NCBI GenBank assembly: GCA_903838995.1
Contig: CAIMAP010000021.1
Location: forward strand, 1 to 36,809
Direction of reading: 5' to 3'
Origin: an uncultured bacterium
GTDB lineage: Bacteria; Bacteroidota; Bacteroidia; Sphingobacteriales; Sphingobacteriaceae
Length of the DNA stretch: 36,809 nt
Below, one piece after another: positions 6,140 through 23,118 of this stretch (position 1 is its first letter; each line of letters opens with the position of its first letter). A model generated the notes under the pieces. It made no database searches, had not been told where the DNA came from, and saw only the letters and a program-made list of their open reading frames with translations. Both the position numbers and the translations under genes were made by a program.

Positions 6140-9019
6140 ATGAAATTAAATTTTACTAAGGCCATTTTAGGTTGCACTTTGTTTTTTTCAGCACAATTTG
6201 TAGCTGCAACAAATCCAACACAATTAAATGTTAATCGAAATGTTTTAGCTCGAAGCTATGCATTACCTGCAAAAGTAACTACTAAAGATTATATAGCTGG
6301 AGTAGTAATTGTAAAAATTGTAGCTACACAAAAGAGTAATTGTACTCCAAATAGTATCGCTATTCCTAGTTTACAAAATGCTTTTTCCAAATTAAATGTT
6401 ACAAAGGTTAGGCAGTTGTTCCCTAATGCATTACCATTGCAATCAAAATTAATGAATGGTCAGCAAGCGCCCGATTTGACTACACTCTATGAGTTACATT
6501 ATGTTTCTGCTATGTCGATCACTCAAGCTATAGAGGAGTTACTTACATCTAAAGCAATCGTTTATGCGGAGCCTTCTTTTATATACCATTTGTCTTATAC
6601 GCCAAACGATCCAGATACTTTATCACCCAAAAATTATTATCAAAAAATTATTAAAGCTTATCAAGCTTGGAATATTTCTAAAGGAGATACCAATACCGTA
6701 ATTGGAATTGTAGATACAGGAGGAGATTTAGATCATCCAGATTTGGCAGCCAATGTGAAATATAATCATGCCGATCCTATTGATGGTATAGACAATGATA
6801 ACGATGGCTATATTGATAACTACAAGGGTTGGGATATGATTGGAGCATCTGGAACGAATTTTGTCCCAGATGGTGATCCAAATGTGCAAGTGGGCGGAAA
6901 CGACCACGGAGTGCATGTTGGCGGTGATGCTTCGGCCGTAGCCGATAACAATACGGGCATAGCGGGTATTGGTTTTAAGTGTAAATTATTATTCGTTAAA
7001 TGTGCGCCAGATGCATACGACAATGCAATTTATTCGGGTTACGAAGGTATTGTATATGCGGTAGATCATGGAGCATCAATAATTAATTGTTCTTGGGGTG
7101 GTGCAGGTGGCGGTACCTTTGGGCAAGATGTAATAAATTATGCTGCAGCCAAAGGCGCATTAGTTGTGGCCGCTGCGGGAAACGATGGTATAGATGCTGC
7201 GCAATATCCTTCATCTTATGACAATGTATTTTCGGTAGCTTCTTCTACTGCAACCGATAAAGCTTCAAATTTTACCACCTATAATTATAGTGTAGACGTA
7301 TCTGCTCCAGGATCTGGAATTTACAGTACTACCTATAATAATTCTTATAATTCTTACGATGGAACTTCTATGGCCTCGCCTATTACAGCGGGTGCTGCTG
7401 CCATTGTAAAATCATATTATCCAAATTACATAGGCATTCAAGTGGGCGAAAAACTAAGAGTGACTGCCGACGATGTGTATTCGAAAAGTGCCACACGTTA
7501 TAAAGATAAATTGGGTAAAGGGCGTATTAATTTATACAGAGCCTTAACCGAAACTTCTCCATCCATTCGTATAGTTCAAAAAGATTTTATTGATAAAAAT
7601 AATGGTGCATTCGTGATTGGAGATACCATTACGATGAACCTAAGATTGGTCAATTATTTAGATCCAACAAGTAATTTAATGGCAACGATTAGCTCTACCT
7701 CGGCTGCTGTTACGCTATTAAATACGAGTATCAATTTGGGAGTGATGGGAACTTTGCAACCCCTAGATGTTGCTCCTATTAAATTTATTGTAAAAGCTGG
7801 TACTGCAGAAAACACCAAAGTAAATTTTAAAATTGCATATGCAGACGGTGCTTATGTAGATGCAGAATTCTTTAGTGTAGAAGTAAATGTATCTTCTTTA
7901 AATATTGTGGTAAATCAATTACAAAGTACCGCAACGGGAATTGGTAGAGTAGGCTATCGTAATGGTGATGGAACAGGCGGTTTAGGGATCGTTTACAAAG
8001 GCGTAAGCATGTTATACGAAGCAGCCTTAATGATTGGTCAAAACAGTACTACGGTTTCTAATAACGCAAGATCTGAAGCAACTACACCCGACGAAAATTT
8101 TGTGGCCACCAAAAGAGTAGCCAAAGTAAATAAACAAGGTTTTGATTTTTATTCTGAAGGTGAATTCAATGATGCCGCAGCATTACCATCGCAACAATTA
8201 TTGATTGCGCACCGGGAAATGGCTTGGAGTCAAATGCCAAACGATAAATTTATTATTGTAGAATATAAAGTAAAAAATACGACTGCCACTAAGCTTACAG
8301 GCATGCATATTGGTTTATTCTTAGACTGGGATATTGTCAATTCTGCAACTAATAGAGTTTTATGGGATTCTACTAATAAAATGGGTGTGGCTATGTCTAC
8401 TACGGCAGGAGATCCAATGGGCGCTGTTAAATTATTATCGCACGAGGCTTCTGCTAATTTTTATGGACAATCTTATTCCATCCCTGGCGACCCACAAGAA
8501 AATGGTTTTTCTATTGCAGAAAAATATTTGACCATGTCTAGTGGAATTGTAAACGATAGTTTAGGTTTTACGGGAACTGGATTAGATGTGCAATATACTA
8601 TTGCAGCTGGTCCATACGAAATTGATTCTGCGGCAGAAGCAACTGTTGCCTTTGCATTTATTGCAGGCGATAGTTTAGCAGACTTGCAAGCAAGTGCGCA
8701 AGCAGCCCAAGCAAAATACAACTCTTTATCAGCTATTTCATCTGTTGGTGCTAACTCTTCACTTTTACCTAGCATGAGCCTATCTCCTAATCCAGCAAAT
8801 CAACAAGTTGTATTGGTATTAAATTTTGTAAAGCCATGTGTAGCTAAAATAATTATCCGAGATCAATTAGGAAGAGTCATTCAACAGTTGAACGATCAAC
8901 ATTGGATGGCTGGTAAAACGCAACAAACCATTAACCTTGTTGGCTTTAAGCCTGGTATTTATTTTGTAACGATGCAGGCAGATGGAGCAAACATAACCCA
9001 GAAGCTTGTTATTTATTAA
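6140..9019 (+). CDS. S8 family subtilisin-like serine protease, T9SS cargo
   Basis: Large secreted protease of 959 residues. A signal peptide (1-23) precedes an inhibitor-like prodomain (~45-155). The catalytic domain (~165-470) has Asp192 (GIVDTGGDLDHPDL), His256 (NDHGVHVGG), oxyanion Asn348 (AAAGNDG) and Ser410 (YDGTSMASP), so the complete catalytic set is present. About 400 residues of beta-rich sequence follow. The C-terminal ~80 residues are a type A T9SS sorting domain (LSPNPANQQV start, GIYFVTM near the end), which implies passage through the type IX secretion pore. The His motif reads HGVHVGG where HGTHVAG is usual. The gene stands alone and ends at the bidirectional terminator shared with the glucan operon. 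The in vivo substrate is unknown. Confidence 0.93.
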   Translation: MKLNFTKAILGCTLFFSAQFVAATNPTQLNVNRNVLARSYALPAKVTTKDYIAGVVIVKIVATQKSNCTPNSIAIPSLQNAFSKLNVTKVRQLFPNALPLQSKLMNGQQAPDLTTLYELHYVSAMSITQAIEELLTSKAIVYAEPSFIYHLSYTPNDPDTLSPKNYYQKIIKAYQAWNISKGDTNTVIGIVDTGGDLDHPDLAANVKYNHADPIDGIDNDNDGYIDNYKGWDMIGASGTNFVPDGDPNVQVGGNDHGVHVGGDASAVADNNTGIAGIGFKCKLLFVKCAPDAYDNAIYSGYEGIVYAVDHGASIINCSWGGAGGGTFGQDVINYAAAKGALVVAAAGNDGIDAAQYPSSYDNVFSVASSTATDKASNFTTYNYSVDVSAPGSGIYSTTYNNSYNSYDGTSMASPITAGAAAIVKSYYPNYIGIQVGEKLRVTADDVYSKSATRYKDKLGKGRINLYRALTETSPSIRIVQKDFIDKNNGAFVIGDTITMNLRLVNYLDPTSNLMATISSTSAAVTLLNTSINLGVMGTLQPLDVAPIKFIVKAGTAENTKVNFKIAYADGAYVDAEFFSVEVNVSSLNIVVNQLQSTATGIGRVGYRNGDGTGGLGIVYKGVSMLYEAALMIGQNSTTVSNNARSEATTPDENFVATKRVAKVNKQGFDFYSEGEFNDAAALPSQQLLIAHREMAWSQMPNDKFIIVEYKVKNTTATKLTGMHIGLFLDWDIVNSATNRVLWDSTNKMGVAMSTTAGDPMGAVKLLSHEASANFYGQSYSIPGDPQENGFSIAEKYLTMSSGIVNDSLGFTGTGLDVQYTIAAGPYEIDSAAEATVAFAFIAGDSLADLQASAQAAQAKYNSLSAISSVGANSSLLPSMSLSPNPANQQVVLVLNFVKPCVAKIIIRDQLGRVIQQLNDQHWMAGKTQQTINLVGFKPGIYFVTMQADGANITQKLVIY

Positions 9020-9099: not shown

Positions 9100-11418
9100 T
9101 TAGTTTTTAACTACTCTTGCAACTTTTTCATTTACTTTCACTAAATAAATTCCATTTGTGAAATTTGCTAAGTCAATTGTTCCGTTTGCAGAAACATTTT
9201 GTGTAGCAACTAATTTTCCTTCAATAGAATAAATTTTTGCGATGTTAATTTCATTCACGTTTAAACCTTTTATCGTAACTGTGTTTGCAGTAGGATTAGG
9301 ATAAACATTTAAGCTAACCGCGCTTGTATTATTAATACCTACAGCAGGTTTGCTGAAGTAAACGTTGTCGATATAACAAATACCTGCACCTGTTGGCGCT
9401 CCTGATAAAATAAGTTGAGCAATATGTGATTTGTTGGTCAAGTTAGTAAAGTCAGTTAAAGGAATGTTAAGACTTACCCATCCATTTTGTGTAGGTGTAA
9501 ACGTTAATTCGTGCTCTGTATCATCACCACCACCGTAACCAGCATCAGCACCAAAGTCAACTAATTTAATTCTTAAAGTAGTCATGTTTGGCGTCCATAC
9601 ATCTAAGTTGAAATGAGACATAGTAGAAGCATTGATTAAATTAGCTCCTGTAGTTTCGATACCTACAAAATCTAATGCCGAATATTTTTTTACATCATTA
9701 CCTGCCACTTGCATGTCAGTTAAAGTTGCATTCGACCAAGCAGTTCTCCAAGTATCTACACCCACATTAGTATAAGCATTACTGAACATAGAAATTACAT
9801 TAGCTGCTAATGCAGTAGGTGTAGGTGCTGCAGTAGTTGGCTCTAAAATAGTAGCTGGTTTGCTGAAATAAACATTATCGATAAATACAGTTCCTGTTCC
9901 TGCTGGATTACAAGAGAATATTAATTGAGCAATGTGACCTGTGGTAGTTAATCCAACAAAGTCTGTCAATGGAATATCAAAGCTGTTCCAACCTGCAATA
10001 ATTGGGGTAAAAGATAATTCGTGTTCTTTGTCATCACCACCACCAAAAGCAGCATCAGCACCAAAGTCCACTAATTTAATTCTGAATGTAGTCATGTTAG
10101 GTGTCCAAGCATCTACATGGAATTTAGTCATATTAGCTGCATTGATCAAGTTTGGACCAACGGTTTCAATTCCAACAAAGTTTAAATCAGTATATTTTTT
10201 TGTATCGTTACCAGCAACTTGCACATCAGTTAAAGTAGCCGCAGACCATGAAGTTCTCCAAGTATCTACACCCACATTGGTATAAGCATTACTGAACATA
10301 GAAATTACGTCAGCTGCTAATGCAGTAGGAGTAGGAGCTGCAGTAGTTGGTTCTGTTGCCACAACAGCAGGCTTATCGAAATACACATTATCAATATAAA
10401 CTGTTCCAGCAGCAGTTGGCAAGCCAGAGAAAATTAATTGTGCAATGTGTGCAGTTGTGGTTAGATTAGTAAAATCAGATAAATTAATGTCATAGCTATT
10501 CCAAGCATTTTGCGTTGGTGTAAAAACTAATTCATGGTCTTTATCATCACCACCACCGTAAGCACCATCAGCACCAAAGTCAACTAATTTAATTCTAAAA
10601 GTAGTCATGTTTGGCGTATAGGCATTCACATGGAATTTAGTCATTGCAGATGCATTGATCAAGTTTGGTCCAGTAGTTTCAATACCTACGAAATCTAAAG
10701 AAGAATATTTTTTAGTATCGTTACCTGCAATTTGAATGTCGGTTAATGTAGCGTTAGACCACGAAGTTCTCCATGTGTCAACACCTACATTGGTATAGGC
10801 ATTACTAAACATAGAAATCACATCTGCAGCAGCAGCAGTAGGAGTTGGCGCTGCAGTAGTTGGATCCGAAGAAACAGAACCAGCACCAAAAGTAATGTTG
10901 TCTACATAAGTAATGTTGTCTGTTGTTCTTGCTTGAAAGTCTGGGAAAATAATTATTTGATCATTTGTTTCGCCAACTTTAGTAGCAAAGTTAAAAGTCA
11001 ATTCTTCCCATTGGTTAATTACCGTATTCGCTACTTTAATTTCACCAGTTGATCCACCACTTGCCGTAGCAAATTTAATTCCAACATCAGAAAGTACTGA
11101 TTTGTAAACCATCATTTTAACTACACAGTTTGAAGCAGATAAAGTGAAAGTACCAATACCAGCTCCATGCGAGCTTTCGTAACCAGCCCAAGGCTGACCA
11201 GCTGCAGTAGCTGTAAATTTACAAACAGTTGCTGAACTGTTTATACCAGTTGTGCTTGGGTTTGCAACCATTGTAATAGCAGGGTTTGTTGTGCCATTTT
11301 CAAAAGTTGTCCAAGTCCATGCGTTTCCATATGCACCTGTTTCAAAGGTGATGGGCGCGTTTTGAGCAAATGCCATACTTGATAGCATCATCAAAAATAA
11401 AAAGGAGATTTTTTTCAT
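9100..11418 (-). CDS. Multi-modular secreted (putative glycan-binding) protein with three tandem repeats, T9SS cargo
   Basis: Exported protein of 772 residues with no recognisable catalytic motif. A signal peptide (1-19) precedes a jelly-roll, CBM-like domain (~20-180, with an AGYESSHGAGI region). Three near-identical ~170-residue modules follow (186-356, 357-526, 527-691), each with a Thr/Pro-rich linker PTTAAPTPT, then SMFSNAYTNVGVDTWRT, NMTTFRIKLVDFGAD, a Gly/Asp stretch GGGDDKxHEL and YIDNVYF. A T9SS type A sorting domain lies at ~698-772 (NVYPNPTANTVTI to GIYLVKV). The modules have a beta-sandwich, carbohydrate-binding character, and similar modules occur beside GH16 catalytic domains in Bacteroidota (from memory). 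It is the last gene of the operon, 36 bases after the GH16 gene. Inference: a surface-anchored or released glucan-binding protein. Confidence 0.8.
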   Translation of the reverse strand: MKKISFLFLMMLSSMAFAQNAPITFETGAYGNAWTWTTFENGTTNPAITMVANPSTTGINSSATVCKFTATAAGQPWAGYESSHGAGIGTFTLSASNCVVKMMVYKSVLSDVGIKFATASGGSTGEIKVANTVINQWEELTFNFATKVGETNDQIIIFPDFQARTTDNITYVDNITFGAGSVSSDPTTAAPTPTAAAADVISMFSNAYTNVGVDTWRTSWSNATLTDIQIAGNDTKKYSSLDFVGIETTGPNLINASAMTKFHVNAYTPNMTTFRIKLVDFGADGAYGGGDDKDHELVFTPTQNAWNSYDINLSDFTNLTTTAHIAQLIFSGLPTAAGTVYIDNVYFDKPAVVATEPTTAAPTPTALAADVISMFSNAYTNVGVDTWRTSWSAATLTDVQVAGNDTKKYTDLNFVGIETVGPNLINAANMTKFHVDAWTPNMTTFRIKLVDFGADAAFGGGDDKEHELSFTPIIAGWNSFDIPLTDFVGLTTTGHIAQLIFSCNPAGTGTVFIDNVYFSKPATILEPTTAAPTPTALAANVISMFSNAYTNVGVDTWRTAWSNATLTDMQVAGNDVKKYSALDFVGIETTGANLINASTMSHFNLDVWTPNMTTLRIKLVDFGADAGYGGGDDTEHELTFTPTQNGWVSLNIPLTDFTNLTNKSHIAQLILSGAPTGAGICYIDNVYFSKPAVGINNTSAVSLNVYPNPTANTVTIKGLNVNEINIAKIYSIEGKLVATQNVSANGTIDLANFTNGIYLVKVNEKVARVVKN
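9346..10863 (-). repeat. Three tandem ~510-bp coding repeats
   Basis: Inside the last operon gene: unit 1 is 10351-10863, unit 2 is 9841-10350 and unit 3 is 9346-9840 (shorter, running into the sorting domain). The DNA is highly similar between units; for example, the stretch for the linker and SMFSNAYTNVGVDTW recurs almost base for base near 9780, 10290 and 10800. This points to recent duplication or continuing homogenisation. Confidence 0.9.
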
Positions 11419-11454: not shown

Positions 11455-12288
11455 TTAATTGGGTAAGTATTTAAAATTTTTAAGGATTATTTCGTGTGCT
11501 AAGCCGTTGTTTGGTGCGGCGCCGTTCAACAACCAAAAATTAAATCGAATTTTTGTTGAATCGCCAGGTGCCGGAATCACCATTGGATCCGAAACCCTAC
11601 TGCCCTCTATTTTAGTTCGGCTAATATTGTTTTTTGTAAACACATGGTGTGAAATTTGTTGCGTGCCAAAAATACTTTCTCCAACATAACTTTTCCAAAC
11701 AATACTGTCTGGCGTCCATTGCATAGTATAGGTACAAGTACTTGCATTGTATTTAGTTGGAATATTGGGTTTGTGCGTGCGTTCTGCATATGGCGCAGGA
11801 TTGCTAAAAATAACTGGTTGTACACTATAAGTTACTGGCAAAGTATCATTTGCATCACCCCATTTTGCAAATTCAATATCTACTTCCGAATTACCAGATT
11901 TTTGGAAAGAGTAATCATCCCAAGTAAAAAAACCAAACACTGTCATGGGGTCAAAATTTCTAATGTCTGTTTCGCAGGTTAATTGATAGGTGCCATAACC
12001 AAATCTTTTGGTACTGACAATTTCACTGCATTGCCAAAATCCATTTTTTTGTTGAATTTTTAAATGCAATTTTTGTTGATTGTCTACCCATGCAGCAGTA
12101 CTATCTCCTAAAAAACGATTAGGGCCTGGACCAACGGGTGTTATTTTGTTTTTGTAATTAAAATAAAAACCCGAAAAATACAAGTCGCCTTTTTCTTCAT
12201 AGATGTTTGCAGGCGCAGACTGTTCGCAGCCATATCCTAGCGCAACCAAAGCAAGTAAACTAAATATTTTATATTTTTTAATTAACAT
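11455..12288 (-). CDS. Glycoside hydrolase family 16 lipoprotein (endo-beta-glucanase-like)
   Basis: Protein of 277 residues with a lipoprotein-type leader ending GYGC (Cys21). The GH16 active-site signature ExDxE is present as E135-V-D137-I-E139 in NSEVDIEFAKWG: Glu135 is the expected nucleophile and Glu139 the acid/base. The upstream segments GYGTYQLTCET and FGFFTWDD fit the jelly-roll strands lining the cleft. GH16 enzymes cut beta-1,3, beta-1,4 or mixed-linkage glucans and galactans internally; the exact specificity cannot be read here. The company of GH3 and the TIM-barrel enzyme favours a beta-glucan. Its start overlaps the end of the GH3 gene by 11 bases, so translation is probably coupled. 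Location: outer membrane or periplasm, lipid-anchored. Confidence 0.88.
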   Translation of the reverse strand: MLIKKYKIFSLLALVALGYGCEQSAPANIYEEKGDLYFSGFYFNYKNKITPVGPGPNRFLGDSTAAWVDNQQKLHLKIQQKNGFWQCSEIVSTKRFGYGTYQLTCETDIRNFDPMTVFGFFTWDDYSFQKSGNSEVDIEFAKWGDANDTLPVTYSVQPVIFSNPAPYAERTHKPNIPTKYNASTCTYTMQWTPDSIVWKSYVGESIFGTQQISHHVFTKNNISRTKIEGSRVSDPMVIPAPGDSTKIRFNFWLLNGAAPNNGLAHEIILKNFKYLPN

Positions 12289-14521
12289 AAATTCTTTTGG
12301 TTTCGTTTTGTATCATTAAATCAAATTCGCCAGCTTCTGTTACTCTTTTTAATTGCTTGTTTACAAATGCCAATTCATTTTTATGAATTTGGAAAGTGAT
12401 TGTTTGTTGCTCGCCTGCTTTTAAGTTTATTTTTTTAAATGCCAATAGTTTTTTAACAGATGGTGTTATGGAAGCAACTAAATCTGCATAATAGATTTGT
12501 ACTACTTCTTTACCTTCTATTTCACTATTATTTTTTACCACTACACTTACTCCAATCGAATCGTTTTCGTTTAAAGTGATTTTAGAGACCGCCATGCCGC
12601 TATAGATAAAGTTACTATAGCTCATTCCAAAACCAAAATCAAATGCAGGGTTGTAGCCTTTGTTACTAAAATCTACATTAATATTTTCCGCATATTTACG
12701 ATCATAATGTAGCAAACTATTGGCATCGGCCGGGTAACTAAACGGTAATTTACCACTCGGGTTTGTTTCGCCACAAATAACCGATGCAATGGCTTTTCCG
12801 CCTTCGTCACCTGGTAAATAGGCATATACAATGGCATCAACTAAAGGGATAATATTTTTTAAAATTCTTGGTCTATTAAAGGTGCAAACTAAAATAATTG
12901 GTTTATTTAATTTGCTCAATGCAAATACCAAGTCTTCTTGTGCTTTTGGTAAATATAAATTATCAATATTTCCTGGTATTTCTGTCGAAGGAGTTTCTGC
13001 TAAACAAATAATAATTTTGTCTGCGTTTTTTGCTTTTGCTAAACAATCATCAATATTAATGATTTGATCAATACTACTGCCTGCAGCGAAGGCAACGCGA
13101 TTGGCGCCAGCAAATTTTTGGATAGCAGCTAGTGTGGTTAATTTATTTTTAGTATTAAAATTAGTATCGACGCCTTGCCATGTATGCGTCCAAGCGCCAT
13201 TTAAATAATTCAAACTATTGGCTCCAGGTCCGCAAACAAAAATCGATTCGTTTTTATTTTTCAGAGGAAGTGTTTGTTTATTATTTTTCAAGAGTGTAAT
13301 ACATTCGCTTGCCACTGCTAAACTTTTTGCAGCATGTTCGGATGAACCAAACAGCGGATACTTGGTTTGGGTATCTTTAGTCTCAAATAAACCTAACTCA
13401 TATTTCAAGGTTAATATTCTGCTTACCGAACTATCAATTCGAGTCATTGGAATACGGCCTTCTTTTATTAATTCAATGAGTAATTCTGTATACTGGTAAT
13501 CGTTCGGTGTCATACTCATATCTATGCCAGCCATAATGGCCATATAAACCGCTTCTTTTTTGGTGGCAGCTACATGGTGCATATCTACTAGTTTATAGAT
13601 GTCTTCCCAATCTGTAACAGCAACACCTTTAAAGCCCAATTCTTTTCTTAATAGCGTAGTTAAAATATCGTAATTCGCATGTACAGGTGTTCCGTTTATA
13701 TCGGCAGAATTGATCATGACTGTTTTGGCGCCTTGATCTATAGCTGTTTTAAAAGTAGGTAGGTAATACTCCCGCATTTCTCTTTCGGAAAGCCAAATTG
13801 GAGTTCGGTCTTTTCCACTCAATGACATGCTATAACCTAAGAAATGTTTCATGCAAGCCGCCACATGGTAAGGACTGTATTTGTTATCACCTTGCAAACC
13901 ATTAATGGCTGCTTTGCTCATGCTATTGGCTAAGCAAACATCTTCTCCAAATGTTTCAAAAAAGCGTGACCATAAGGGTTGTCTGCCTAAATCTAAAACT
14001 GGCGAAAAATTCCAAGGAATTCCAGTTGCCCTAGCTTCGTATGCTGTTACTTCGTAGCCTTGTTTTACTAAGTCGGGGTTCCAAGTTGCTGCTTGTGCAA
14101 TTTGTTGTGGAAATAAAGTGGCACCAATGGTGTAGTTGTTTCCGTGAATGGCATCAATGCCATAAATGACTGGGATCTGTAATTTTGTATTTTTCGTTTC
14201 TGCCCCGATGGCTGCAAATATTTTTTGCCAATTCTCCCGGCTAATTGTACCACTGCCGCAGCCAACATTTAAAAACGATCCAATATGGTATTGATTAATG
14301 GCTTTCTTTAATTTGGCTTGATTAATAGATTGCGGTTGTGTTAAATTGCATACATCGCCATTGGCAATCACACCTAAGTCAAGCTGCGTCATTTCTCCGG
14401 CCTTTTCTTCGATGCTCATTTTGCCAATTAAAGCGGCAATATCAATTTGTTTTTTTTGTGCAAAAACCGTTAGGTTACAAAAAATCAAAGCAAAGAATAA
14501 GGTATTTTTAATGCGATTCAT
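12278..14521 (-). CDS. Glycoside hydrolase family 3 beta-glucosidase
   Basis: Exported enzyme of 747 residues. A signal peptide (1-21) is followed by the GH3 N-terminal TIM-barrel domain with KHFLGYS (from 225) and the nucleophile Asp304 in VAVTDWEDI. The C-terminal alpha/beta domain contains the segment ending NPSGKLPFSYP, and a fibronectin-III-like domain covers the last ~100 residues. Length and domain order are those of standard beta-glucosidases of the BglX type. It should release glucose from oligosaccharides made by the GH16 and TIM-barrel enzymes, probably in the periplasm. It lies one base after the preceding lipoprotein gene in the operon. Confidence 0.93.
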   Translation of the reverse strand: MNRIKNTLFFALIFCNLTVFAQKKQIDIAALIGKMSIEEKAGEMTQLDLGVIANGDVCNLTQPQSINQAKLKKAINQYHIGSFLNVGCGSGTISRENWQKIFAAIGAETKNTKLQIPVIYGIDAIHGNNYTIGATLFPQQIAQAATWNPDLVKQGYEVTAYEARATGIPWNFSPVLDLGRQPLWSRFFETFGEDVCLANSMSKAAINGLQGDNKYSPYHVAACMKHFLGYSMSLSGKDRTPIWLSEREMREYYLPTFKTAIDQGAKTVMINSADINGTPVHANYDILTTLLRKELGFKGVAVTDWEDIYKLVDMHHVAATKKEAVYMAIMAGIDMSMTPNDYQYTELLIELIKEGRIPMTRIDSSVSRILTLKYELGLFETKDTQTKYPLFGSSEHAAKSLAVASECITLLKNNKQTLPLKNKNESIFVCGPGANSLNYLNGAWTHTWQGVDTNFNTKNKLTTLAAIQKFAGANRVAFAAGSSIDQIINIDDCLAKAKNADKIIICLAETPSTEIPGNIDNLYLPKAQEDLVFALSKLNKPIILVCTFNRPRILKNIIPLVDAIVYAYLPGDEGGKAIASVICGETNPSGKLPFSYPADANSLLHYDRKYAENINVDFSNKGYNPAFDFGFGMSYSNFIYSGMAVSKITLNENDSIGVSVVVKNNSEIEGKEVVQIYYADLVASITPSVKKLLAFKKINLKAGEQQTITFQIHKNELAFVNKQLKRVTEAGEFDLMIQNETKRIYVN

Positions 14522-14522
14522 T

Positions 14523-15164
14523 TTACAATCTCACAATTTTAATATCATCTAAATATATTTCTCCATCACCTTCTAGCTGAATGATAAATTGCTTTACTTT
14601 TTCAAGGTCGAAGTTTTTAGATTTAAAATCAAATTTTTTCAAAGGAATACTAACTGTTGTCCAGTTTTCTGAATTAAATTCGCCAGATGCTTGGCTCATT
14701 TGAAAACCAACATAACTTTGCACACCCGAGTAATCTTCGAAAGCAAAAGCAACTGGAAAATTTTTAAAGTTTCCATTCACCGATTTTACTTTCATTTGCA
14801 CTGCGCAGTCTTCACTTACATCTAGCATATCTTTAGCCATCCAGCTATTCCAGCCAAATCCAATACCAATCCATTTGCAGCCACCAGCAATTTTATCCCA
14901 CTTTACTTTTAAGCCAGCCTTCCCATTATATACATAATTTCGTTCTGTACTTAAACTTACACAATTCCGTTCGGGCGAAACCCAAACACTATTATCGTAA
15001 TCATCTTTAAAAATATGAACCGCTTTGAAACCGTTAATTTCTTCTGTATTAATTTGAGCGTTTAGGTCGTATAAAGATTTTTCTTGCACTTGAACCATGG
15101 TGCTACAAGCACTCATTGTAAGTGTGAGTAAAACGAAACTAGCTATGTAAATTATTTTGTTCAT
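14523..15164 (-). CDS. Lipoprotein with beta-sandwich, CBM-like domain
   Basis: Protein of 213 residues with a clear lipobox (TMSAC, Cys20). The mature part is one predicted beta-sandwich domain with KAGLKVKWDK, an aromatic-rich IGIGFGWNSW stretch, and a terminal GEIYLDDIKIV strand. This pattern is shared by CBM11/CIA30-like and other galactose-binding-fold domains. There are no catalytic residues. Its start codon overlaps the stop of the upstream lipoprotein gene by one base, and its stop is one base from the GH3 start. Inference: a glucan-binding lipoprotein that feeds the neighbouring enzymes. I do not recognise a named family with certainty. Confidence 0.72.
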   Translation of the reverse strand: MNKIIYIASFVLLTLTMSACSTMVQVQEKSLYDLNAQINTEEINGFKAVHIFKDDYDNSVWVSPERNCVSLSTERNYVYNGKAGLKVKWDKIAGGCKWIGIGFGWNSWMAKDMLDVSEDCAVQMKVKSVNGNFKNFPVAFAFEDYSGVQSYVGFQMSQASGEFNSENWTTVSIPLKKFDFKSKNFDLEKVKQFIIQLEGDGEIYLDDIKIVRL

Positions 15165-16177
15165 TAAAGGTCTAGCGCTTTATTTTGGGTAAAAGAAATT
15201 AAATCAATTTTACACCTAGCAAAACCCAAATTAGGATCTGCTAATTGCAAGAAAGATATTTTGCCTATTTTATCAGGGTTATGTTGTTTATTACCATTAG
15301 GACTTGCAGGATTTCCATTTACCAAGGTTACGATATCTGCGTATTTTACCGAAACTAATCTCCATCCAATCCAATTTACATCTATGCTGTAATCGTATTC
15401 GTCTTCTTTTGCTGCATCAAAAACACCATCACTATTTTCATCTTCTTTAAATTGAAACAAGGCTTTGGTCATGTTTGTTTTTGGATCTGGATCACCATAA
15501 ATCAAAACGTTAAAATATTCCGCCTCTGGGTTGTTGCTCAAAGGGAAAGTGACATTGTTATTATAAGCATTGGCATTGAAATCGACTAAGCCTATTAACC
15601 AATCCCAATTTACAGTACCACCCATGTTTAAGTATTTTGTACCTTCTGGCGCAAAATTATCTGCTTTAACCAGGCATTCCATGCTTGCGCCAGATTGAAA
15701 AAACTTGGTCCATTTTGGATCTAAGCCATTTTCAAAATTGGCAATCATTCTTGCACCAGTAGGAAGTAGTTTAGTTTTTGATATACTAATAGTAGTGCTT
15801 GCGCTATCGTTTTCGCTAGCGATTAAAAGCGTTGCAGTGCAATTCTCCGTTTTAAATAAAGGGAATAAAGTAGTCGATCCATTCCAAGTGGCATTGCTAG
15901 CATCTATTACTTTACTTTCGCCGCTAATAATTTTTGTTGCTTTTGAAATAGAACCTTTGATGGTAATTTTCCAAGAAACTATTTTATTAAAGCGAGCTGA
16001 AAAAATAGCGTTGCTATTTTCAAAATCTGCCGTTGCTTTATCAACCTTAAATGATTCGATAATCGCAAACTTGCTATTAATTTCATTGATACTTGGTCCG
16101 TCGAAAGTATTTTCTTTCCTGCATGCGCTCAGTCCAATGCTCACTAAGCCAACGAATAATAATAATGTCTTTTTCAT
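15164..16177 (-). CDS. Putative surface glycan-binding lipoprotein
   Basis: Protein of 337 residues with lipobox LSAC (Cys19), followed by RKEN; a charged Lys-Glu patch just after the Cys resembles the surface-export signal described for Bacteroidota lipoproteins. Residues ~35-140 form an Ig/PKD-like beta domain. Residues ~145-337 form a second beta-sandwich with several Trp (NWDWLIGLVDF, VNWIGWRLVSV) and a calcium-loop-like DENSDGVFD. The architecture, an Ig-like spacer and a C-terminal aromatic binding domain, is that of SGBP-type proteins in glycan utilisation loci. It sits between the barrel genes and the second lipoprotein in a tightly packed operon. The glycan-binding function is inferred; the specific family was not recognised. 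Confidence 0.72.
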   Translation of the reverse strand: MKKTLLLFVGLVSIGLSACRKENTFDGPSINEINSKFAIIESFKVDKATADFENSNAIFSARFNKIVSWKITIKGSISKATKIISGESKVIDASNATWNGSTTLFPLFKTENCTATLLIASENDSASTTISISKTKLLPTGARMIANFENGLDPKWTKFFQSGASMECLVKADNFAPEGTKYLNMGGTVNWDWLIGLVDFNANAYNNNVTFPLSNNPEAEYFNVLIYGDPDPKTNMTKALFQFKEDENSDGVFDAAKEDEYDYSIDVNWIGWRLVSVKYADIVTLVNGNPASPNGNKQHNPDKIGKISFLQLADPNLGFARCKIDLISFTQNKALDL

Positions 16178-16178
16178 A

Positions 16179-17906
16179 TTATAATAGAATATTATAGATT
16201 AATCCAAATTGATTGATTTTAAAATCAGCCATAGCTTTATTGTTGATGGTCGACCGATCTTGATAACTGCTTTGTTGTAATAAGGCACATAAATAAGCTT
16301 TAGGGCTAAAATTAATTCGCAAACCCACTGCCGCTATTTGTTGGCTAAGGTTATAATTGCTATTCCTGAAATAAGTGACTTCCGAATATTCGTTTCTTTC
16401 GGTAATAAAACTATTTCCATTATTTTGTTGTTGCACAAAACCCGCTAACAATTCAAGGTCAGGAATAATTTCATAGTTCATGCCCAAGCTTACTTGCAGG
16501 TTTTTATAATCAATATTTTCAGTGGCATAAATACTATTTCTAGTGGTTTGTTGTAAACGCAATCCTAATTGAACTTCGAATTTATTAGCTAATCCGATGA
16601 GTGTATGGAATGGAATTTTGCTATTTAACTTTACTTGGCTAAAAGCTTTCAATGCATCCGAACCTTGACCTCTAATTTCGTTTAATCGATATACTTCTGC
16701 TTGAATATGGATATTGTTTTTGCTTTGGAATTGTAATTTACCATAAGCACCTACTCTATTAAAAGTAGCTAAACCATAAGGTAGAATATCATTAAAAACT
16801 TCGTTCTCCGCAGCAAGCGAGGTGCTGATCGTTCTATTGTAAATATTTTCATTACCAATCATATCAATTAAAGTGATAGGTCTTAATTGTTGATTGTTGG
16901 TAAAGCGATTGAAAAACAATGTTGGTGCATTGTAGTTCACATCTTTGCTTTGCGCTCCAATACTTCTAAAATCTGGGCCTACATTTAAGTAGCCAACACT
17001 AATATTGGTATGAAAATATGCTAAATAAAGTTTAGCATAGGCATTCACGAAATAATCATTTAATACAGGTGCCAAAGTATCTGCCGAATAATTCCAATTG
17101 CTAATACCCGCTTCGCCAGCAAGTTTCAGGGTGTTTTGTGCAATGGCATGATTGATAGACCAATCAAAAGTATGTATGGTATTACTGAATAAATTATTAT
17201 TAGCGGTAGTTGCTTTTAAATCGAAGGTAGAATTGTAGGTATATCCAAAACGGAATTGATTGCTTTGAACAATATTGATATTTCCGCCAGTCATCAATCG
17301 CTCGTTTACATTCGCAAAATTGGTGGCATTTAATCGAGTAACAAAACCATTGAAATTAATTTCTTTTAAGAATTTGGAAAAGCTTAAACCAAAATCAACA
17401 TTGGCACCTTGCATTCTCCAAGTATTATTTTGATAAAATTGTTCGTAAGAAACTATATTTTGTTGCAATTTAAAAACGCTCGGCATGGAATCTAATTGAT
17501 CTGCATGCTGATTGTATAAAGTGAATGGGCTTTGTCTTAAATTTAAATCACCAATTTGGTATCTCAAAGCATTACCAACAACTCCTTTCACCCAAAGCTG
17601 TCTTACATCAAATTGCACACCCGAACCCCAAAAACCACCGTAATTATTTTTAATACGGAACATGCCCATAATTTCGGTTTGTTTATTCGGTTGAATATTG
17701 AAGCCTAAATCGAGTAGCGTATAACCACCATAGTTATTTTTAGCCGTTGTGGTATCTGCAAGCGTATCGCTCACGCTCAGGGCATTGCTAAATACAGAAG
17801 ACCTAGCGCCGCCTATAAAACTAAGCTTCCTTGCTTTTTGTGCATATCCTTGTAAACTTGCTAAAGCAAGTGCAAAGAAAAATATCGTTTTTTTGTTCAT
17901 CATCAT
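16179..17906 (-). CDS. Outer-membrane beta-barrel protein of unknown family (575 aa)
   Basis: Signal peptide ending GYAQ (~residue 22). The rest is an alternating polar/hydrophobic pattern with many Asn, Gln, Tyr and Phe and repeated short strands with aromatic ends (for example YGKLQFQSKNNIHIQAEVYR and LQVSLGMNYEIIPDLELLAGF), ending in FGLIYNILL. This is the look of a transmembrane beta-barrel of roughly 20 or more strands. No TonB box, carboxypeptidase-like N-terminal domain or plug domain was seen, so it is not a SusC. It lies three bases after the other barrel gene and one base before the SGBP-like lipoprotein gene. Inference: outer-membrane porin or scaffold for the glucan machinery. Confidence 0.72.
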   Translation of the reverse strand: MMMNKKTIFFFALALASLQGYAQKARKLSFIGGARSSVFSNALSVSDTLADTTTAKNNYGGYTLLDLGFNIQPNKQTEIMGMFRIKNNYGGFWGSGVQFDVRQLWVKGVVGNALRYQIGDLNLRQSPFTLYNQHADQLDSMPSVFKLQQNIVSYEQFYQNNTWRMQGANVDFGLSFSKFLKEINFNGFVTRLNATNFANVNERLMTGGNINIVQSNQFRFGYTYNSTFDLKATTANNNLFSNTIHTFDWSINHAIAQNTLKLAGEAGISNWNYSADTLAPVLNDYFVNAYAKLYLAYFHTNISVGYLNVGPDFRSIGAQSKDVNYNAPTLFFNRFTNNQQLRPITLIDMIGNENIYNRTISTSLAAENEVFNDILPYGLATFNRVGAYGKLQFQSKNNIHIQAEVYRLNEIRGQGSDALKAFSQVKLNSKIPFHTLIGLANKFEVQLGLRLQQTTRNSIYATENIDYKNLQVSLGMNYEIIPDLELLAGFVQQQNNGNSFITERNEYSEVTYFRNSNYNLSQQIAAVGLRINFSPKAYLCALLQQSSYQDRSTINNKAMADFKINQFGLIYNILL

Positions 17907-17909
17907 TTT

Positions 17910-19829
17910 TTAAAAAAACATTTTTACTTCTACTGTAGTTTCAAATCCCTTGTATTGGTCATTGGCATAACTACTGTCTTGATAATCCATCCAGCGTTGT
18001 CTTAGGTATAATCCCGCCGATTTACTCAACTGTATATCTAAACCTGTTGCAAAACTATAACCCGTTTGATTTTTTGGTCTGCTACTTTGCACATCAATTG
18101 CGGTTTGGTAGTTCGCAATAATTCTTTCGAAACTCAGGTAGTTATTCCAAATTAATTTTGGATTAATAACATAGTAAGATTCTATTTGATGGCAATAATT
18201 ACGCACTAAGGCTCTTTCTGTAAACACCAATAATCCACCATCTTTCAGGCTACTCATACTAGAAAAGTTTTGAACAGAATTAAAGGAACCTAAATAAAAC
18301 AAATACAAATCTTTGTTTGCTAAAATGGTTTTGTATTTTGAATTAATTTCTAGCGTATTGAAATACTTTTTTTGATTCGGCAAACCTGTTGCAGGATTGA
18401 TATCCGTTATATTTAATGTTTCAAAAACATTACGATAAATTTTATTTAGGTTTTTGTATGGACCTACATTGCTTGGAAATCCCCATCTCCAAAATCTCGA
18501 TAAGGCTAAACTATTAAAGGCATGCGAATAAGTAATACCTGGCGAAAGGTTTTCTAATTCCATGGAAGAACTGTAGCCAATAGAATTTTTTAATCTTCCA
18601 AAATTCAATTGCGAATTTATTTCTATTCCTTGTCTGTTATTGGCTAGTTGCCCTATTGGCAAAATAGCACTCGACACCGGAATCAAAACGGCTTGTGTTA
18701 AATTTGAATTAGTTTGAACGCTTTGCTGTATAGAGGAGTTAATAAACACGGCATTATTATTGAAAACGCGCGGGCTTACTCTGTAAAAATGAATTTCTGT
18801 TGGAAATTGATCTGCAATGGGGTAGGCTAGTTTAATAGAAATCGCTTCCCCGTATTTGGTATAGTTTTGATTAATATGGGTATTACCCATCCCAATTTCT
18901 GCCCATATTTTTAATCTTTCAATGTAATGGGTAATTTCTAAAGTGTGCACCGAAAATCCAGTCGTATTTTTAGCAAGGGAATCTAGGTAAGTATTGTTAT
19001 TGAATGAATTGGCCGAAATGGCATTTTGATGTTGCTTGTAAAACTTAGTTAGTTTGCCGCCAAAAGAATTATTAGGTAAAGCAAGCACGCCGCCATCAAA
19101 TTGTGTTTTACCAGTCATTAAACTAAAAGCAAAATCATTTGGTAGTTGGGCGCCGTCTATAATTAAACCTTGAAATGCTTGATTTCCCCAGCGTTGGTCT
19201 TGGTTAATGGCACCCGAGTTAAAAAAATCAACATACCTCGAATCCATCGAGGGTGTATTTGGATCCCATGGATTTCTTTCAAATAAACTGTAACGATTAT
19301 AACCTTTATTAGCTTGAAAAGTAAATGGAGAAAGTAAATGCCAATTAATACCACCCGTTCTAACATTAAAGGTTCCAAATGAGGTATTAAAATTACCAAA
19401 TAAATTTACACCTAAATTGAGTCCTTTCACATTTTCTGTTTGACCTAATCCAGTCATCGGTGCCCACATATATAAGTCGGTACCAAAAGAAGTTTTACTC
19501 GACGCAAAACCTTTAATGTTGAGCATTAATTGTGGAATTTGACTATCGTCGCCTACAAAAATATTTCTTTTGTTATTTTCTAAATGAGGGTAAATAACAG
19601 ACATATCTCTATAGTTTGTAATAAAGCGATAATATCCATTTACTTCTAGCCCTTCTAAAACTGCTTGCGCTGATTTTGGAAATACGCCTTGTGCATTATT
19701 TTCAACCGAAACAATGGTTACTATGGAATCTGCTTTTTGCTTTTCTTTAATTTCAAAAGCATTCGCATACGCAGAAACCCCCGCACTCAGGATATAACTC
19801 ATTAAAACAATTTTTTTCAATTGTCCCAT
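17910..19829 (-). CDS. Outer-membrane beta-barrel protein of unknown family (639 aa)
   Basis: A signal peptide (ending near AYANA, ~residue 24) is followed by ~50 residues and then a long beta-barrel pattern starting at LEVNGYYRFITNYRDM and ending in a typical C-terminal strand with terminal Phe (TVEVKMFF), as expected for BAM-dependent insertion. The first third is rich in Gly, Asn and Trp (MWAPMTGLGQ, FERNPWDPNTPS), which may form extracellular loops. There is no plug domain or TonB box. Gaps to its neighbours are one and three bases. It and the 575-residue barrel are of different lengths and I see no clear similarity between them by eye. Inference: oligosaccharide porin or enzyme-anchoring barrel. 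It is not assigned to a known family. Confidence 0.72.
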   Translation of the reverse strand: MGQLKKIVLMSYILSAGVSAYANAFEIKEKQKADSIVTIVSVENNAQGVFPKSAQAVLEGLEVNGYYRFITNYRDMSVIYPHLENNKRNIFVGDDSQIPQLMLNIKGFASSKTSFGTDLYMWAPMTGLGQTENVKGLNLGVNLFGNFNTSFGTFNVRTGGINWHLLSPFTFQANKGYNRYSLFERNPWDPNTPSMDSRYVDFFNSGAINQDQRWGNQAFQGLIIDGAQLPNDFAFSLMTGKTQFDGGVLALPNNSFGGKLTKFYKQHQNAISANSFNNNTYLDSLAKNTTGFSVHTLEITHYIERLKIWAEIGMGNTHINQNYTKYGEAISIKLAYPIADQFPTEIHFYRVSPRVFNNNAVFINSSIQQSVQTNSNLTQAVLIPVSSAILPIGQLANNRQGIEINSQLNFGRLKNSIGYSSSMELENLSPGITYSHAFNSLALSRFWRWGFPSNVGPYKNLNKIYRNVFETLNITDINPATGLPNQKKYFNTLEINSKYKTILANKDLYLFYLGSFNSVQNFSSMSSLKDGGLLVFTERALVRNYCHQIESYYVINPKLIWNNYLSFERIIANYQTAIDVQSSRPKNQTGYSFATGLDIQLSKSAGLYLRQRWMDYQDSSYANDQYKGFETTVEVKMFF

Positions 19830-19830
19830 A

Positions 19831-21171
19831 TTATTCGTTGAAATTATTCATGTCGGTGTATTTGAATTCAATGAATTTACCTTGAGGTTCATTTGCGCCC
19901 CTAGCTATTACTTTGAACGGAATGTTTGCATAAGCCATTTTGTTTTGATAAGTAACCGAAACAAAAAGCCTATATGCGCCTGCATTTTGTGGTGCTCTAA
20001 ATTTTATTAGATTTTTTTGTGAAGTCTTTTTAATTAATCCAGTTATTTCTGATGCCGCATCTTCCACATCACCGCCCGATTTTTTATCGGTACTTTCTTC
20101 TATAATACGCCAGTTGTAACTTGCTTTTTCCATATTTGCATTTCCTGCAAGTTGAATATTGATATTGGCATCGAAAATTCCAGATGCTTTTAATTCAATA
20201 TTGTCTGTTGCTTTTTGTTGCTCAACCTGAAAGCTTAGAATAGTGGGAGCGGGGTTTGTTAAAACCTTACCGGTAAAAACTTCTTCGAGTGCATCGATGG
20301 GTTCGGTTGGAATATTATTTTTTGAAAACAAGCCATACCATGTTTCGGTATACTCTTGTTTGGCGCCCCATAAAAATGCATAAGAGCCTAAACAAGTATT
20401 GGAATTTTTCTCGATGTAATTTTTATATCGGCTGAAATAGACTTCTTTTTTTTCTGTGCTATTTTGCTCTATCGAAACACCCCATTTAGTTTGTGGTGAT
20501 TCCCAATGACCATTAGGACCCCATTCGGTAATCATATATGGGCCATTCCATCCAAACTTTGCAATATGATTGGGCACATTGCCAATATCACCATAGGTAT
20601 TAATGGAATAAATATCGATATCTGGACAACGAGCGGTAATAAAAGCTACTTCTAAAGAGTCTAAGCCTGCTGTAACCGTAGTGGTTGGATGATTAGGATC
20701 GGTTTCGTGAATGTATTTAGCAATATCTTGAATGGCGTTCCAAACATTCGGGTTGGTATAGTTTAGATCTACTTCGTTCCCCACGCCCCAAATTAATAAG
20801 GCAGGATGGTTTTTAAATCGGTCAATAACAGTTTTAAAATAAGCCAATTGTTTCGCTACTTTTTCTTTATTGTTATAATCGAAACCATGTCTTTCATGTT
20901 GCACCCAAAGACCAAGCATGACTGTTAATCCATTGCGTTGCGCTTCGTCTAATACTTCTTGTGCACGCTCCACACCCCATGTTCTAAGGGAGTTTGCGCC
21001 TATGGCCACCATTTTTTCCATGTTCACATCGCCACCCACACCTTTTATATAATAAGGCTTTCCATTTCTTTGCATTTCAAAACCGTTACTTGTTTTCACA
21101 ACTTTGGTTTGTGCCGCAAGAGAAATTCCTATCAACAAAAAAAGACTTAAAATGATTAATTTTTTATTCAT
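19831..21171 (-). CDS. TIM-barrel glycoside hydrolase (GH158/GH2-C-like, putative endo-beta-1,3-glucanase)
   Basis: First gene of the operon, 446 residues. A signal peptide (1-20) is followed by a (beta/alpha)8 domain (~35-310) with KGVGGDVNMEKMVAIGAN and LRTWGVERA, acid/base Glu133 in WGVGNEVD and predicted nucleophile Glu216 in MITEWGPNG. An Ig-like C-terminal domain follows (~315-430). The fold and two-Glu layout are clan GH-A. The size, the C-terminal Ig domain and the 83-residue spacing of the two Glu match, as I recall them, the Bacteroides laminarin endo-beta-1,3-glucanase of family GH158. A general GH2-type TIM-barrel annotation is the safe alternative. Partners GH16 and GH3 are the same enzyme set known from beta-1,3-glucan loci. 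The start is set by the signal peptide. Confidence 0.78.
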   Translation of the reverse strand: MNKKLIILSLFLLIGISLAAQTKVVKTSNGFEMQRNGKPYYIKGVGGDVNMEKMVAIGANSLRTWGVERAQEVLDEAQRNGLTVMLGLWVQHERHGFDYNNKEKVAKQLAYFKTVIDRFKNHPALLIWGVGNEVDLNYTNPNVWNAIQDIAKYIHETDPNHPTTTVTAGLDSLEVAFITARCPDIDIYSINTYGDIGNVPNHIAKFGWNGPYMITEWGPNGHWESPQTKWGVSIEQNSTEKKEVYFSRYKNYIEKNSNTCLGSYAFLWGAKQEYTETWYGLFSKNNIPTEPIDALEEVFTGKVLTNPAPTILSFQVEQQKATDNIELKASGIFDANINIQLAGNANMEKASYNWRIIEESTDKKSGGDVEDAASEITGLIKKTSQKNLIKFRAPQNAGAYRLFVSVTYQNKMAYANIPFKVIARGANEPQGKFIEFKYTDMNNFNE

Positions 21172-21444: not shown

Positions 21445-23118
21445 ATGCAACAAAACAATCCTTCCAATGCTGCAAAAATGCAAGCAACAAATTACGGCGC
21501 ATTAAGTACCCTTATTACCGTATTTTTTTTCTGGGGCTTTATTGCTGCAGGAAATGGTGTTTTTATTCCTTTTTGTAAAGATTATTTCCACCTCGATCAA
21601 TTTCAAAGTCAATTAGTCGATTATGCATTTTATGTAGCTTATTACATTGGCGCATTAGTTATTTTCATGATCAGTAGTGCTACTGGAAAGGATTTGGTTG
21701 GTTCTTGGGGTTACAAAAAAAGTATCGTTTATGGCTTATTGTTTAGTGCAATTGGCGCAGTTGCTATGATTATTGCAGTAAATGCAAATACATTTGCAGG
21801 CATGTTGGTTGGCTTATTTATAGTTGCACTTGGCTTTAGTTTACAGCAAACTGCAGCCAATCCATTTGCCATTTCATTAGGCGATGAATCAACTGCAACA
21901 GGAAGAATAAGTTTAGGTGGTGGAATCAATAGTTTTGGAACCATGATTGGTCCAATCATTGTTTCTTTGCTTTTATTTGGTACAGCTGCAGCAACAGAAG
22001 AACAAACAAAAAATCTGGGTTTAAATAATGTGAGTTTTATGTATGCCGGTGTTGGCGCCTTGTTTATTGCCGCCGCCGCATTATTTAACTTTAGTAAAAA
22101 AGTGCCAGCAGGCTTAAATATCGAAAAGCAAGAACCTGCAAATAAAGCATTGAATGTTTTATTAGTCATAACAGGGCTATTAATTTTCATGTTTATTCCA
22201 GTGTTTAAAAGTTATATTGGATTAGCCACAGATTTATCTGCATCACAGCAATATGATTTAGAATTGTATCGATTCAAATGGTTATTAGGCGCATTGTTTG
22301 TGATTATTTTCGGCATGTTATTTTCTTTTCAATCTGCCAAAAAAAATCCACATGGTTGGGGTGCCATGCAATATCCTCAATTGGTATTAGGCATGTTAGC
22401 CATATTCACTTATGTAGGTGTAGAAGTAGCTATACAAAGTAATTTAGGTGAATTATTAAAACAAGATTATATGGGAGGTTTTGCCTCTTCTCAAATCTCT
22501 CCTTATATCAGCATGTATTGGGGAAGTTTAATGATTGGTAGATGGGCCGGAAGTATCAATGTTTTCAACTTGTCTAATCAAATCAAACGTTTATTATTAT
22601 TGGTGGTGCCATTGCTTGCGTTCGGTATAATTATTGGCGTGAATGTATTGGCGCAAAAAGACATGTCGCCTTTATATGCCTATGTACTTTGCGTAGCCAT
22701 ATTAATTGCCGCATTTTTTATCTCAAACGATAAACCCGTTAAAACTTTATTAACCTTTAGCGCATTAGGAATTGTTTCTATGTTAATTGGTTTGTTTACA
22801 CAAGGACAAATTGCAATTTATGCATTATTGAGTGGCGGTTTATGGTGTAGTATTATGTGGCCAAGTATATTCAGTTTATCATTGGCTGGTTTAGGAAAAT
22901 ACACTACCCAAGGTTCTGCATTTTTAGTGATGATGATTTTAGGCGGAGGAATTATTCCACCACTACAAGGTAAGCTAGCCGATATGATTGGCATTCATCA
23001 GTCTTATTGGGTTACGGTCATCTGCTTTACTTATATCGCATTTTTTGCCATCGCGGTTAAAAGAATTTTAACCAAGCAAGGAATCGAATACGATAGCCCT
23101 GCTACAAGCGCACATTAA
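21445..23118 (+). CDS. FucP-like MFS sugar permease
   Basis: Inner-membrane transporter of 557 residues of the fucose/glucose/galactose:proton symporter (FHS) type. The N-terminal segment [21 protein letters not shown] and the downstream [16 protein letters not shown] and [15 protein letters not shown] are characteristic. It is longer than the ~430 residues of classical FucP. The extra length is central (about residues 230-310) and contains two further hydrophobic stretches ([18 protein letters not shown] and [15 protein letters not shown]), giving about 14 predicted helices. It diverges from the glucan operon, so it most likely imports the glucose released by the GH3 enzyme. The start was chosen just before the hydrophilic leader; the gene ends at a strong terminator. 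Confidence 0.88.

Follow-up and report, generated by a model that had tools for sequence, protein, structure and literature searches.

In Bacteroidota, SusC and SusD are the basis for finding polysaccharide utilization loci (PULs) and for understanding glycan uptake. A beta-1,3-glucan PUL of this SusC/SusD type, the 1,3GUL of Bacteroides uniformis, carries GH16, GH158 and GH3 (PMC7157763). A different arrangement is the chu_1276-chu_1280 cluster of Cytophaga hutchinsonii, which encodes two outer-membrane proteins, the presumed glycan binders CHU_1278 and CHU_1279, and an endoglucanase; cellulose cannot be used without it. The cluster has no SusD and was termed an atypical PUL, and it was reported in three species, of Cytophaga and Sporocytophaga only and for cellulose only (PMC12016534). 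Mutants of CHU_1276 and CHU_1277 do not utilize cellulose. CHU_1277 is linked to cellooligosaccharide assimilation, and cell-surface beta-glucosidase activity is lost in chu_1276 and chu_1277 mutants (PMC5553014); the title of Zhou 2016, as cited in PMC12016534, links CHU_1276 to glucose uptake.

The locus described here lies on a 36,809-nucleotide stretch of DNA (the window) from an uncultured bacterium of the Sphingobacteriaceae. Eight genes form an operon running from 21171 to 9100 (GH158, barrel 1, barrel 2, lipoprotein A, lipoprotein B, GH3, GH16 and a 772-aa binder), with a transporter gene diverging from it:

21445..23118, + strand: MFS sugar transporter, inner membrane, divergent; likely imports the released sugar
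19831..21171, - strand: GH158 endo-beta-1,3-glucanase, 446 aa, first operon gene, SPI signal (PDB 9oro, E 3.8e-88; 6pal, BuGH158, E 1.2e-69)
17910..19829, - strand: barrel 1 (P0002, family A3), 639 aa; signal peptide, ~35-aa flexible N-terminus, predicted ~22-24-strand barrel, C-terminal Phe
17907..17909, - strand: gap between barrel 1 and barrel 2, 3 bp (TAA-aaa-ATG)
16179..17906, - strand: barrel 2 (P0001, family A4), 575 aa; signal peptide, 22-strand barrel model
15164..16177, - strand: lipoprotein A, 337 aa, invariant lipobox Cys19, Ig/CBM11-like; core partner of the pair
14523..15164, - strand: lipoprotein B, 213 aa, CBM30/SGBP-B-like glycan binder
12278..14521, - strand: GH3 beta-glucosidase (Pfam)
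11455..12288, - strand: GH16 endo-glucanase, predicted lipoprotein (GYGC)
9100..11418, - strand: 772-aa surface binder, three CBM11-like repeats and a T9SS C-terminal sorting domain

A first-pass annotation of the sequence had described the barrels as neighbouring genes with a three-base gap, placed between a glucanase and glycan-binding lipoproteins. Both open reading frames were found at these coordinates and on this strand, with GH158 upstream and the two lipoproteins downstream. A protease of the subtilase family that carries a T9SS sorting domain (6140-9019, + strand) adjoins the 3' end of the operon, and a protein with a Reg_prop propeller and a histidine-kinase-like ATPase domain, having no obvious partner, is encoded at 143-3013 (+ strand). 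The pair was also considered as T9SS components, an idea that was dropped for want of any linked T9SS machinery gene.

The presence of GH158 with GH16 and GH3 makes this a locus of the beta-1,3-glucan type. It has in common with the B. uniformis 1,3GUL the GH16/GH158/GH3 set, a surface glycan-binding protein, a surface lipoprotein endo-glucanase and the predicted substrate (PMC7157763). The susC/susD gene pair of a canonical PUL is absent from the window operon, however, and in place of a TonB-dependent SusC and a SusD there are the plug-less pair and lipoprotein A. Gene order matches chu_1276-1280 as far as the second lipoprotein and is then followed by GH3/GH16; the CHU_1279-like two-CBM binder is absent from the window, where lipoprotein B is instead CBM30-like (its relatives often have an extra CBM9 domain). 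With GH158, GH16, GH3 and a T9SS binder, the window is a beta-1,3-glucan version of what chu_1276-1280 is for cellulose. The pair is read here, with a probability of roughly 0.6, as the outer-membrane channel of a SusC/SusD-free PUL, in this case for beta-1,3-glucan.

Signal peptides are visible in the N-terminal sequences of both barrels. The 639-residue protein, for which a terminal-Phe barrel signal had been claimed, does end in ...VKMFF; barrel 2 ends in ...NILL in the window and in F in most relatives. AlphaFold2 with family alignments gave a beta-barrel for the 575-aa protein (pLDDT 88.7, pTM 0.84, 22 strands by DSSP) and, at moderate confidence, for the 639-aa protein (pLDDT 79.3, pTM 0.78, ~22-24 strands). 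The SusC/TonB-dependent transporter barrel has 22 strands, to be set beside 22 in the barrel 2 model and ~22-24 in the less confident barrel 1 model. Searches of Pfam, NCBIfam and PDB sequences with single sequences and profiles found no family match above noise for either barrel. Porin_10 (PF14121) had no Pfam match and reached E 0.004-0.005 over 24 columns in profile comparison, the TonB-dependent transporter (TBDT) profile reached E 7e-3 and 5e-4 against the two barrel families, and Foldseek against the PDB returned only generic porins (chitoporin, maltoporin, MOMP) and TonB receptors at TM 0.25 to ~0.5, so that Pfam, profiles and Foldseek place neither barrel in a general porin family. The annotation had also seen no TonB box or plug, and in agreement with this Pfam matched no plug (PF07715) or TonB domain in the window proteins or in A1/A2 members; in the model of barrel 2, the first strand begins at residue 27, directly after the signal peptide. 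In being plug-less with conserved loops turned inward, the barrels resemble Porin_10, maltoporin, chitoporin and MOMP, whereas they differ from general and sugar porins in having no sequence-family match, at least 22 strands rather than 16-18, an obligate hetero-pair and a Bacteroidota PUL context. With facing set by hydrophobicity, conservation in each barrel is higher at lumen-facing than at lipid-facing positions (p 5e-4 and 2e-3), which fits two channels better than a channel and a scaffold.

The two proteins had been called dissimilar barrels with no clear similarity between them, a view with which the profile comparisons disagree. Alignment of 37- and 41-member profiles by hhalign gave Prob 96.5 and E 7.8e-10 over 416 collinear columns, against E 0.2-0.5 for reversed-profile controls and E 5e-4 to 7e-3 for the barrel families compared with TBDT and Porin_10 profiles; the score is to be read with caution, as Porin_10 and TBDT profiles themselves align at E 3e-7. 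On subsampling to half size, the signal was weak in two of four cases (E 1e-4 and 5e-3), with the register unchanged. The argument for paralogy is one from profiles, because single-sequence hhalign of family 1 with family 2 did not rise above background. The aligned part covers 15 strands in both models, and long conserved loops stand at equivalent places in the two barrels, after strand 5 (with SPFT inside) and after strand 13 (with NRxG at the end). Barrel 1 and barrel 2 are therefore probably ancient, distant paralogues of similar predicted strand number.

Pairing was evaluated in 395 evenly drawn Bacteroidia genomes, in which family 1 was found in 48, family 2 in 49 and both in 48; the sole unpaired family 2 copy (G411) lies at a contig end, with its start at base 23. 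The hypergeometric probability of this overlap is ~3e-61 if relatedness is ignored, and counted by genus the pairing stands at 31/197. In a set of 150 relatives, both proteins occur in the same 8 genomes. Where neighbourhoods were read (80 named loci), the partner is directly downstream in 75/80 and the remaining 5/80 end at a contig edge; spacing in relatives has a median of 1 bp and is at most 30 bp in 120/122. Neither the 395 genomes nor the 80 named loci showed a solo copy away from contig ends. Distances within the two families correlate at r 0.90, which partly reflects shared phylogeny. The pair occurs in ~12% of the 395 sampled genomes, spans at least 14 families and differing enzyme sets, and is patchily distributed, being confined within the window's own family to the window's genus. 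Co-occurrence had been named as one check and independent occurrence as one finding that would tell against the proposal; the families are strictly paired (48/48 genomes), and adjacency together with context strongly supports a fixed two-barrel unit within a glycan-enzyme operon.

What surrounds the pair is constant in one part and variable in another. Of the 68 contexts that are complete, 66 include lipoprotein A, 60 a CBM-lipoprotein or GH3 cluster member and 51 GH158. The core of pair and lipoprotein A is accompanied by GH158/GH16 (beta-1,3-glucan), by GH18 (chitin) or by GH9 (cellulose). In the chitin type, GH18 is accompanied by a fusion of NagB and PIG-L; in the cellulose type, a CelD_N-GH9 endoglucanase stands with a lipoprotein of 380 aa. 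Another large family has the GH158 type in eight genera. Both barrel trees place the chitin-type pairs and the cellulose-type pairs in supported clades of their own, the chitin clade of both including one pair of no assigned flavour. The fusion, a ~575-aa glucosamine-6-phosphate isomerase/PIG-L deacetylase downstream of the pair at L137, L146, L151, L158, L163 and L167, suggests GlcNAc-oligosaccharide catabolism in the chitin-type loci. Several pair loci encode a two-component-propeller protein of ~960 aa that has a LuxR-type HTH (cluster c8; L182:4380-7262), and at others a NUDIX/NrtR-AraR-like regulator takes its place; both are likely glycan sensors.

The GH9-type loci connect the family to C. 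hutchinsonii. The exact order OMP-OMP-lipoprotein-SGBP-B-like-endoglucanase is found at L136, L144, L154 and L157 (the second barrel of L157, missing from one gene call, was placed by another analysis), and the fourth gene of such loci encodes a CHU_1279-like 380-aa two-CBM lipoprotein in which the six aromatics reported for CHU_1279 (W89, F92, F180, Y253, F256, F343) are matched within a few residues. Of 145 similar-sized proteins, four carry this six-aromatic fingerprint, and they are exactly those of L136, L144, L154 and L157. Because the GH9-type loci share both the gene order and the CHU_1279 aromatics, the barrel family very probably includes CHU_1276/1277, an assignment made from gene order and the CHU_1279-like neighbour rather than from barrel sequence. 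The suggestion that the pair might be a new transporter or complex holds only in part as regards novelty: the same layout was already described as chu_1276-1280 (PMC12016534). On the best reading of these data, the pair system reaches far beyond the reported cellulose system in both distribution and range of substrates.

Other functions for the pair were weighed. The first-pass annotation had offered a porin plus an enzyme-anchoring barrel as an example. The idea that one barrel imports and the other is an outer-membrane platform anchoring or displaying enzymes and binders is kept alive by the chu_1276 and chu_1277 mutants, which lose their cell-associated beta-glucosidase activity (PMC5553014); loss of surface enzyme is not something that a pure channel requires. 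No specific support for anchoring was found, however, and the division seems unlikely given that the two barrels are probable paralogues, alike in their conserved lumen and in the arrangement of their conserved loops, and that the GH16 and the binders have anchors of their own, a lipobox or a T9SS tail. Two ordinary porins sharing an operon for dosage, with no complex formed, would agree with Foldseek matches to generic porins only (TM 0.25-0.5) and with the finding that no fused version of the two barrels was seen, yet this is a still more doubtful account of one-to-one co-occurrence in 48/48 genomes with fixed order and ~1-bp spacing, of the nearly constant presence of lipoprotein A, of the lack of solo copies away from contig ends, and of barrels that match neither Porin_10 nor TBDT profiles.

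An export or assembly machine, flipping for example glycan-binding lipoproteins or enzymes to the surface, would suit the position of the pair, which is always upstream of surface lipoproteins. Such a role is nevertheless very improbable, the enzyme cargo varying by flavour while the barrel core stays constant and the published phenotypes being uptake defects; in Bacteroidota, moreover, the export of lipoproteins to the surface is not known to be tied to particular loci.

With the pair taken as the outer-membrane channel, a route for the polysaccharide can be proposed. The 772-aa T9SS protein and lipoproteins A and B would hold it at the surface, where the GH16 lipoprotein would cleave it outside the cell, and the two barrels would together form a hetero-oligomer through which the oligosaccharides cross; its inward-facing residues and the long loops conserved after strands 5 and 13 may select and constrict. 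Lipoprotein A would probably sit on the pair in the way that SusD sits on SusC, as a cap or a docking partner. Transport is probably by facilitated diffusion and not TonB-driven, since there is no plug and barrel 2 has no room for a TonB box. GH158 and GH3, placed in the periplasm because they have SPI signals and no T9SS tail, would complete digestion there, and an MFS/SSF carrier would bring the sugar inside. What the data show are the genes, their pairing and context, the barrel predictions and the lumen conservation; complex formation, import, substrate and TonB independence we infer.

SusD was found in none of the examined pair neighbourhoods, and a TBDT in two pair loci only, on the opposite strand. 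The window's own genome (G000), a streamlined 2-Mb Bacteroidota genome, has 14 TonB-receptor barrel matches and one weak SusD match. Another genome (G401), from a family with more than 100 genera, has a canonical SusC/SusD PUL. A further canonical SusC/SusD PUL (L214:8468-13986) encodes a 983-aa protein with 28.6% identity to the CHU_1279-like binder, as well as a weakly lipoprotein-A-like gene; these binder relatives imply that glycan binders are shared between SusC/SusD PULs and barrel-pair PULs. A broader proposal, offered tentatively and at a little under even odds, is that the pair represents a second, independent class of Bacteroidota outer-membrane glycan importer parallel to SusC/SusD, consisting of obligate heteromeric, paralogous, plug-less 22-strand barrels with a dedicated surface lipoprotein; this modular, TonB-free chassis would serve beta-1,3-glucan, chitin and cellulose in different loci.

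In summary, the puzzling cellulose cluster of C. hutchinsonii becomes one probable instance of a general system, for which laminarin and chitin oligosaccharides offer easier, testable substrates for transport work. Loci without SusC/SusD escape those PUL predictors that key on susC/susD, and many Bacteroidota probably take up beta-glucan, chitin or cellulose through this poorly known pair machinery instead of SusC/SusD.
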